Shown piece by piece: positions 44,066-47,000 of a stretch of 64,000 nt of DNA. Made by a program: the position numbers and the translations under genes. Positions within the stretch are counted from its first letter, which is position 1; each line of letters starts with the position of its first letter. This DNA comes from Hesseltinella vesiculosa (Eukaryota; Mucoromycota; Mucoromycetes; Mucorales; Cunninghamellaceae): NCBI GenBank assembly GCA_002104935.1, contig MCGT01000024.1:333651-397650 (forward strand), given 5' to 3'. The notes beneath the pieces were generated by a model. It did not search any database, was not told the DNA's origin, and worked only from the letters and a program-made list of their open reading frames with translations.

Positions 44066-47000
44066 ATGTACATCAAGCAAGTAAGTTTGTCATTTACCGT
44101 TCAAAGCACGGAAGAGCTTCTAATCATTCCATTGCTTAGATTGCTATCCAAGGATTCAAATCGTATAAAGATCAAACGGCATTTGATCCTCTCAGCCCTA
44201 AACACAACGTCATTGGTAAACACGCAAACAGTCATATCGAAGGATCTTGCAACCAAGTTGGTTTGTATTGACGCCAATCACTTTGTTTAAACTAGTGGGA
44301 CGCAATGGTTCTGGCAAAAGTAACTTTTTCTCAGGTAAGTCATGGCAAAATGAGAGTGCTTTTCCAATCAGACCTGAACATATTTGTTCGACCTTTTTTT
44401 TTTTTTTTTTTCCACTCATCTAGCTATTCGATTTGTTTTCGGCGACACTTATAACAACTTGACCAAGGAGCAGCGTCAATCTTTGCTTCATGTAAATTGA
44501 TTCCCTCTCCCAGTCAATGAATCAGCGATTTGACCTTTTTCAAATAGGAAAGCGTTGGTGGTGCTACGATTTCTGGTTTTGTGGAACTTATCCTTGACAA
44601 CTCTGATCGTCGTTTACCTGTAAGTTTTAGTTATAGGAAACCAGCATGCCACCGAGGTCGCTTACAGGATTTACGTACATTTTTTAAATTTTATTTTGCC
44701 TGCTAGGTTGAGCATGACGAAGTCAAGATCCGACGCACCATTGGTCTTTCCTTGGACGAGTATTCTTTGGACGGCAAAATTTCCACGTAAACTACTGAAA
44801 AAAAACGAGCTGCCACAAGCACACCACTAACGAATGATTCTCTCACAGGAAATCCGACATGAAAAGCTTGTTTGAAAGTGCTGGTTTGTCGAGCGCCAAC
44901 CCTTACTTCATTGTTCCCCAAGGACGGGTAAGTTTTTTTTTTTCTTTTTTGGCTTGGAATCAATACCAACTCTTTCCCTTTAAGATCAATGCCCTGACGA
45001 CAGCCAAAGACAAGGACCGATTGGAGTTGTTGAAACAAATTGCTGGGACCAGCCTCTATGAAGAAAAGCGCGAGGAAAGTATCCAGCTCATGCAACAAAA
45101 CGGTAAATATTCACACCCAACCTCCAAAAAAAAAATAACAGAGCCTTGATTTCTCCACTCTTCTTATAGAAATCAAGCGTACCAAGATCCGTAGTGTGCT
45201 GACGTTTATTGAAGAGCGGTTGCAACAACTGGAACAAGAGAAGGATCAATTGACGCAATTCCAAGACCTGGACTCGGACCGTCGATCGCTGGAATACACC
45301 ATCTATGCTCGTGAACAAACCGACACAAATGCCAAGCTGGAAGAACTGGAAGAGCTCCGCAACCGTGATCTCTACGCCCTGGAATCTGTCCGTACCGAGC
45401 TCACTGACAATGAATCCTCACTAACCGCCTTGGCAACGACACAAGAGGATATCCTCACCTCCATTGACACCGTGGAATCAGAAAAGTCAATGTTGTTAAA
45501 CGAAATGGATGACCTCATGTCGCGTCGTACCCAACTCGAGTTGGACATCAAGGACTATGAAGATATGCAAGTCTCAGCCATTCAGTACAAGGTACCCATC
45601 ATCCAGGAACCTCCCCCCCCCTATCCACCGTAACCAAACCCCCCTTTTTTTTACAGGAAAAAATCAAAGTTGCTTTGAATCACCTTGACAATGAGATTGA
45701 ACACAAGGAACACTTGTTGGCCGATCTGACGCCTAGAAATGACACCATGCAGTCGTCTGAAAAAGAGCTCAACCAAAGGTACCAACAGCATCCGAGCGGC
45801 AAAACAGTAACATTTTTTTTTTTTTCATTTGCGAATAGACTGGATGCTGTGAAGATTGATTTGGAAAGCTTGTATGCAAAGGAAGCCCGCCTGAACCGAG
45901 TCACCAGCAAACAAGAACGCGATCAATGGCTTCAAAAACAAATCAATGACAGCAATGCCTTGCGGAAGCATTTGGAAGAACAGGTAAACAAGATAAAAGC
46001 ATACTGGAACGTTCGAAGCTGACGTTTTTGAATAGATCCAATCGTGCACAGAGGAAAAACACCAAGCTGAACAAGGGGTACAAGGTGCAGCTCAACGCAT
46101 TCAACTGATCCGTGAAAAACAAGCAAAATTCCAACAAGATAAAACAGATGCTATGGCCCGCGAAGTGGAACTGTCCAATCGCCGGGATACCCTGATGGAA
46201 GAGCGCAAGTAAGTCGATTCCTATCCTCGGAAAAGAAAACAGTGAAGTTGATGGATTCACTGACACTGAATGCCTTCATTCCAGATCCCTCTGGCGTGAG
46301 GACGCGGGTTTATCCGAGAAGATCACCAAGCATAAGAATGAACTACGTCGCGCTGAACATCAACTCAACTCTTCCATGAATAAGGTACAGGAAAGAACCA
46401 CGAAAGGCAACGAACTGACTTTGGGGGGGTTTTTTTTTCTCTGTATAGAACACGGCGGCAGGTCTTGCCCTGGTGCAACGCTTGGTAAAAGAGCATGACT
46501 GGCAGGGCGTGTACGGTCCTCTTTACCAGCTAATGGACGTGGATGATCGATTCCTTACTGCCGTGGAAGTGGCTGCAGGTGCTAGGTAATATCCTTTTGT
46601 TTATTTCTTGGTGTGATGCTCACCACAGCAAGTTTATTTTTCTGATAGCTTGTTCCATGTGGTGGTAGATACCGACGAAACAGCCACGAAGTTGATGGAA
46701 GCCATGGCAGCTGAAAAGAGCGGCCGCGTCACCTTTGTGCCACTGAACCGCGTCAAATCAGCCATCATGGAATACCCTTCTGCTAGCGATGCCATTCCTT
46801 TGATTCAAAAGCTGCATTTTGACCAGACATACCAAAACGCTTTCCAACAGGTAAAAAAAAAAAAAAAACTTAGGATATCGTGAAGGCTGACGCTCGTTTT
46901 TTTGTGTTGTGTAGATTTTCGCTCGTACGCTTGTGTGCCCCAATTTAGACATTGCTGCCAAATACGCCAAGGGCCAAGGGTTCTCAGTTGTGACTCTGGA

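Follow-up and report, generated by a model that had tools for sequence, protein, structure and literature searches.

Loss of the Eco1-type acetylation site of the cohesin subunit SMC3 in Hesseltinella vesiculosa and in the sampled Mucorales

The SMC3 locus of Hesseltinella vesiculosa

The window analyzed here is a stretch of 64 000 nucleotides (C17:333651-397650) from the Hesseltinella vesiculosa assembly, which comprises 27.05 Mb in 85 contigs. By taxonomy look-up, this fungus, under which the SMC3 protein record is listed, belongs to the family Cunninghamellaceae of the order Mucorales. The features of interest, numbered from the start of the window, all belong to a single gene:

44066..49179, + strand: SMC3 gene, 24 exons, 1192 amino acids (spliced product P0002; Pfam SMC_N and SMC_hinge; the top PDB matches are SMC3 chains)
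44298..44324, + strand: Walker A motif GRNGSGKSN, intact (sequence reading)
44707..44786, + strand: exon 6, with the acetylation loop (splicing and translation)
44740..44763, + strand: loop IGLSLDEY, residues 102-109; IGxKKDEY in most of the other fungi aligned
44749..44754, + strand: TCC TTG, Ser105-Leu106, replacing Lys-Lys (human K105/K106, yeast K112/K113; translation and alignments)
48799..48819, + strand: ABC signature LSGGQKS, intact (sequence reading)
48871..48894, + strand: Walker B motif FYLFDEID, intact (sequence reading)

All 23 introns have GT-AG boundaries, and the spliced product of 1192 residues agrees residue for residue with the public Hesseltinella record P0002. The protein has everything expected of the cohesin subunit SMC3, namely, both halves of the head, the hinge, the two Walker motifs and the signature, and it matched SMC3 best when compared with the other SMC proteins; the statement of the sequence-only reading that Walker A, signature and Walker B are intact holds for all three motifs. 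Hesseltinella SMC3 is a single orthologue, encoded at one locus, and in a quick tree groups with its family relatives from Cunninghamella, Absidia and Halteromyces, but its position inside Mucorales is unsure because its branch is long (0.57). The ORFs directly upstream of the gene (42540-43707, + strand) contain hydrophobic stretches; no Pfam family was detected at E 0.001 in parts of two neighboring ORFs, including a 159-residue part of this upstream region.

Replacement of the acetylated lysine pair

Human ESCO1/2 and yeast Eco1 acetylate SMC3 at K105/K106 (K112/K113 in yeast), a modification by which the copies of a chromosome are held together. In Hesseltinella, positions 44740-44775 translate as IGLSLDEYSLDG, where TCC (44749-44751) encodes Ser105 and TTG (44752-44754) encodes Leu106. 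In the PDB alignments, these two residues align gap-free to the ‘KK' of the SMC3 chains 7w1m/6wg3 (residues 105-106), 6yuf and 7ogt, which we take to be the human, fission yeast and budding yeast proteins, respectively. Thus, the Lys-Lys pair of the IGxKKD loop that characterizes an Eco1-regulated SMC3 is missing. The translation, the splicing, the identity to P0002 and the gap-free alignments all bear out the principal claim of the sequence-only reading, that the loop reads IGLSLDEY with Ser-Leu in place of Lys-Lys, and it is close to certain that Hesseltinella SMC3 has lost the Eco1-type acetylation site.

The two codons are located inside exon 6, 42 bases from its start and 32 bases from its end, so that an altered splice site at either edge of the exon would restore no lysines; alternative splicing and a shifted register were rejected given this mid-exon position and the alignments. 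The initial interpretation of the loop was that either cohesion establishment has to work differently or this gene is a second SMC3 freed from acetylation control. The former stands, the lysine pair being gone, whereas the latter finds no support: a search of the genome with the whole protein yielded 25 matches but only one SMC3 locus, and a second SMC3 carrying K-K, for which this search gave no candidate, was accordingly rejected. Of these matches, 19 fall at the SMC3 locus, and the 6 weaker ones, on contigs C34, C4 and C58, look like SMC4, SMC2 and SMC1, judging from motifs read by eye.

The lysine pair across fungi

The best 120 of 3640 SMC3 homologues, including the record of the query itself, were aligned, with the 26-residue record P0001 excluded. 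The alignment includes 26 named species of Mucorales; membership in the order was looked up for 11 of these, along with one Umbelopsis, Bifiguratus and Endogone, and for the other 15 the assignment agrees with the tree. One more record, P0012, which is located beside Mucor hiemalis in the tree, is excluded from the 26 named Mucorales but included in all counts of 27 rows.

Among the 120 homologues, both lysines are absent in all 27 Mucorales rows, so that the alignment of related SMC3 sequences, which had been proposed as a check on the loop, upholds the loss and this loss cannot be attributed to chance. Position 105 is occupied by T in 20 rows, S in 6 and A in one, and position 106 by L in 26 rows and M in one, with D107 kept throughout (27/27). 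Both Umbelopsis rows among the listed homologues have Q-K. In the rows outside Mucorales and Umbelopsis, K-K is found in 90 of the 91, Bifiguratus included, and the lysine at position 106 in all 91. The record P0067, from the Mortierella relative Lunasporangiospora selenospora, has T-K, an independent loss that affects the first lysine alone.

For a quick maximum-likelihood tree, 42 of the 120 rows were chosen by hand and the columns of the lysine pair removed; in this tree, the 27 Mucorales rows form one clade (SH-aLRT 100), with Umbelopsis as the sister group and Bifiguratus outside. The pair is not the only position at which the SMC3 of Mucorales departs from an otherwise near-uniform column: the 91 other rows show a uniformity of 95% or more in 376 columns, and in 26 of these (the pair included), the common residue is kept in no more than 20% of the 26 named Mucorales. 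The conservation of Leu106 in 26 of the 27 rows is not special either because 161 of the 358 head columns are as uniform as the new pair across the same rows.

In the numbering of the Hesseltinella protein, head residues 50, 54, 154, 162, 171, 1011, 1022, 1034, 1068 and 1087 are near-uniform elsewhere and changed in Mucorales, and several of these changes are losses or gains of basic residues. In addition, P0034, P0035, P0041, P0042, P0061 and similar SMC3 records of the Mortierella type have ∼1400-2020 residues and an extra PF04108 domain. These may be fused gene models; the label itself may reflect a coiled-coil match because the Rasamsonia protein P0096, which is of normal length, is also labeled PF04108.

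Distribution of the Eco1 acetyltransferase

Two protein searches for Eco1 were run, one with a composite Eco1 query (search 1, best 120 of 177 proteins) and the other with a consensus assembled by hand from the Eco1 cores of fungi, most of them Mucoromycota (search 2, best 120 of 199). The listed matches of search 2 come from Mortierella relatives, Glomeromycotina, Endogone, Bifiguratus and Umbelopsis (six entries), and further from Calcarisporiella, Basidiobolus, chytrids and Kickxellomycotina. There is no Mucorales name among the best 120 matches of either search; the same protein database lists 26 named Mucorales for SMC3. The weakest listed match of search 2 is at 2.5e-40, so that a more divergent Eco1 outside Hesseltinella would be missed. 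Entries without an organism name account for 15 of the 120 in search 2 and 24 of the 120 in search 1, 33 different ones altogether. The possibility that these are hidden Mucorales found no support, none grouping with Umbelopsis in quick trees with either the 15 or all 33; in the larger tree, P0226, P0227 and P0231 join Bifiguratus with support of 84, a kind of join that is flagged as often false.

The Eco1 proteins of Endogone and Bifiguratus contain both PF13880 and PF13878. The six Umbelopsis entries (P0284, P0285, P0289, P0294, P0297 and P0303; 222-248 amino acids) all contain PF13880, and none has the PF13878 zinc finger, which could be explained in part by short gene models. The Umbelopsis stem is long, 0.71 in the tree with 15 nameless entries and 0.77 in that with 33. 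In our own mapping of the active-site Glu and Ser residues, which are named in a passage of PMC7300003, the Glu is present in 6/6, one Ser in 6/6 and the other Ser in 5/6 of the Umbelopsis proteins (Ala in P0294).

In the Hesseltinella genome itself, the PF13880 profile, used without a fungal positive control, gave 2 candidates, none at E 0.001, and the Eco1 proteins of Gigaspora and Umbelopsis gave 0 candidates each at E 10. Hence the enzyme that an Eco1-regulated SMC3 would need was not found in this genome with the profile and the two relatives' proteins; such a search had been suggested together with the original observation on the loop, and its outcome fits that observation. Two controls calibrate this result. 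With a 222-residue piece of Gigaspora SMC3, which is more conserved than Eco1, SMC4- and SMC2-like genes rank on top, and SMC3 itself is recovered in four pieces of 87-150 bases (E ≤2e-4) and in two further ones, of 78 and 150 bases, that reach no better than E 0.08. The 55-position kleisin domain was found once in the genome.

The rest of the cohesin system

Hesseltinella encodes PDS5 (C16), SCC3 (C33) and the SCC2 loader (C28), as well as one match to the C-terminal domain of the Rad21/Rec8 kleisin family (C18:65581-65709); this match being single, a second, meiotic kleisin is not seen. WAPL was not detected in the genome either by the Pfam profile or by a human sequence, both applied without a fungal positive control. 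Thus, of the two regulators that the sequence-only reading had proposed to look for, PDS5 is present and WAPL went undetected within these limits; among Mucorales, both were examined in Hesseltinella alone.

The N-terminal region of PDS5 (L046:1116-1364, on C16) reads CIVDILRLFAPNPPY in Hesseltinella, compared with CLSDILRLYAPDAPY in chain 5frp and CLADIFRIYAPEAPH in chain 5hdt (PDS5B). The WAPL-binding motif is APNPP, as opposed to APDAP in the yeast chain and APEAP in the human-type 5hdt. It differs from the yeast motif at two of the five residues: the position of the Asp varies elsewhere, and the Pro in place of the second Ala has no counterpart in the chains compared. The residue at the site of yeast PDS5 S81 is V in Hesseltinella and A in 5hdt, and A88, the first Ala of the motif, is kept in Hesseltinella. 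These two sites were placed by counting along the yeast sequence, with the chain numbers, which are two higher, presumed to include a tag. The motif evidence is weaker than it looks because 5hdt also departs from yeast, both at the S81 site and in having APEAP.

In yeast, the APDAP loop is bound by a Wapl motif without which release does not occur, according to PMC10656103, and the pds5 changes S81R and A88P, which count among the suppressors of eco1 loss, abolish the localization of Wapl to pericentric chromatin, according to PMC3485559. On a wider scale, Sororin, WAPL and Haspin have each been lost in some lineages, as stated in part of PMC11148194.

A possible mechanism and its alternatives

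With the site lost throughout the sampled order and Eco1 not found in the Hesseltinella genome, cohesion in these fungi probably proceeds without the acetylation switch. The explanation that we favor, with modest confidence, is that Mucorales lost the Eco1-SMC3 switch on their stem, leaving SMC3 fixed in an acetyl-like state, with little or no WAPL-type release and with cleavage as the only end of cohesion. The neutral pair at positions 105-106 would hold Mucorales cohesin permanently in this acetylation-like, release-poor state and, the unmodified lysines being gone, closed rings would not be opened at the SMC3-kleisin gate. Because the lysines needed for release in yeast are absent, cohesion would then be ended by separase cleavage alone. 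The likely order of events would be a weakening of WAPL/PDS5 release, followed by loss of the need for Eco1 and, finally, by replacement of the lysines.

Experimental work on yeast and human cohesin can be set beside this scheme. Release of DNA in yeast is abolished by smc3 K113T, K113N and K112Q K113Q (PMC10656103, in the part dealing with these alleles); these release-dead alleles have T, N or Q at K113, and Mucorales have Leu (once Met). For human SMC3, a passage of PMC5349539 identifies K106R, not K105R, as the primary cause of cohesion loss. This fits the series seen in fungi, where the first lysine is lost first (Q-K in Umbelopsis, T-K in Lunasporangiospora) and the second is lost only where Eco1 was not found.

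An artefact, that is, a sequencing error, an incorrectly chosen exon or a paralogue that has escaped control, has practically no chance of being the explanation: no point in its support was found, the codons lie mid-exon, neither position is a lysine in the 26 other Mucorales rows and the genome search gave a single SMC3 locus. It also appears improbable that acetylation has moved, with another SMC3 lysine or another acetyltransferase doing the same job; there are other lysines nearby in Hesseltinella SMC3 (LDGK), and the heads of Mucorales SMC3 show further lineage-specific charge changes, but the searches of the Hesseltinella genome gave no Eco1, and loop positions 105-106 hold no lysine pair in any of the 27 Mucorales rows.

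A more serious, if still unlikely, alternative is that Eco1 and the lysines were lost while release persists, with a divergent WAPL opening the ring and a Mucorales-specific protein bound to the T/S-Leu surface protecting the cohesive rings. The retention of PDS5 in Hesseltinella is in line with this scenario and so is the conservation of the putative surface (position 105 T/S, position 106 Leu; 26/27 each), unexceptional as it is among the head columns, and the WAPL negatives were obtained without a fungal control. Against it, the WAPL profile came back empty in a genome that did yield four other cohesin families, the motif in PDS5 is altered and, in the yeast work of PMC10656103, neutral residues at K113 abolish release.

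Relation to known systems

No prior description of a change in Eco1-SMC3 or in cohesin in Mucorales was found in the open-licence literature; mention elsewhere is possible. If the preferred explanation is correct, the Mucorales, including the laboratory moulds Phycomyces and Mucor, have lost the acetylation site and, it seems, Eco1 itself, and Umbelopsis would represent a living half-way stage. Such a series would show a route for the dismantling of an essential switch and would amount to a natural test of whether release of cohesin from DNA is needed outside the canonical models.

Hesseltinella SMC3 is the same protein as the human and budding yeast SMC3, with the same domain order and catalytic motifs and a loop that aligns gap-free, but has Ser-Leu in place of both acceptor lysines, in a genome where no Eco1 was found. 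Another parallel is the suppressor state of yeast, in which eco1 loss is suppressed by a wpl1 null or by specific changes in smc3, pds5 or scc3 (as listed in a passage of PMC3485559). The two states have in common a neutral residue at the second lysine, an altered WAPL-binding region of PDS5, an undetected WAPL and no Eco1 found. They differ in that the Hesseltinella state is natural and known from sequence alone, and the SMC3 part of it is common to all sampled Mucorales; furthermore, the residues are not those of the yeast suppressors, with Leu at the second lysine and APNPP in PDS5.

Another widely conserved part of the chromosome segregation machinery, CENP-A, was lost in the same branch of fungi: according to a section of the review PMC9089191, it is missing in Mucorales and Umbelopsidales and kept in Endogonales. 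This is a different protein, and any causal link between the loss of CENP-A and that of the SMC3 site is speculation. The most far-reaching scenario, an order-wide natural ‘eco1 wapl' double loss in which cohesin has neither an acetylation cycle nor releasing activity, T/S-Leu is the fixed acetyl-like state and which arose together with the CENP-A loss as one overhaul of segregation, seems to us rather doubtful.

Umbelopsis, the sister lineage, resembles Mucorales in that the first SMC3 lysine is already gone (2/2 rows) but, unlike Mucorales, keeps the second lysine and the catalytic domain of Eco1, with the zinc finger absent in 6/6 entries.
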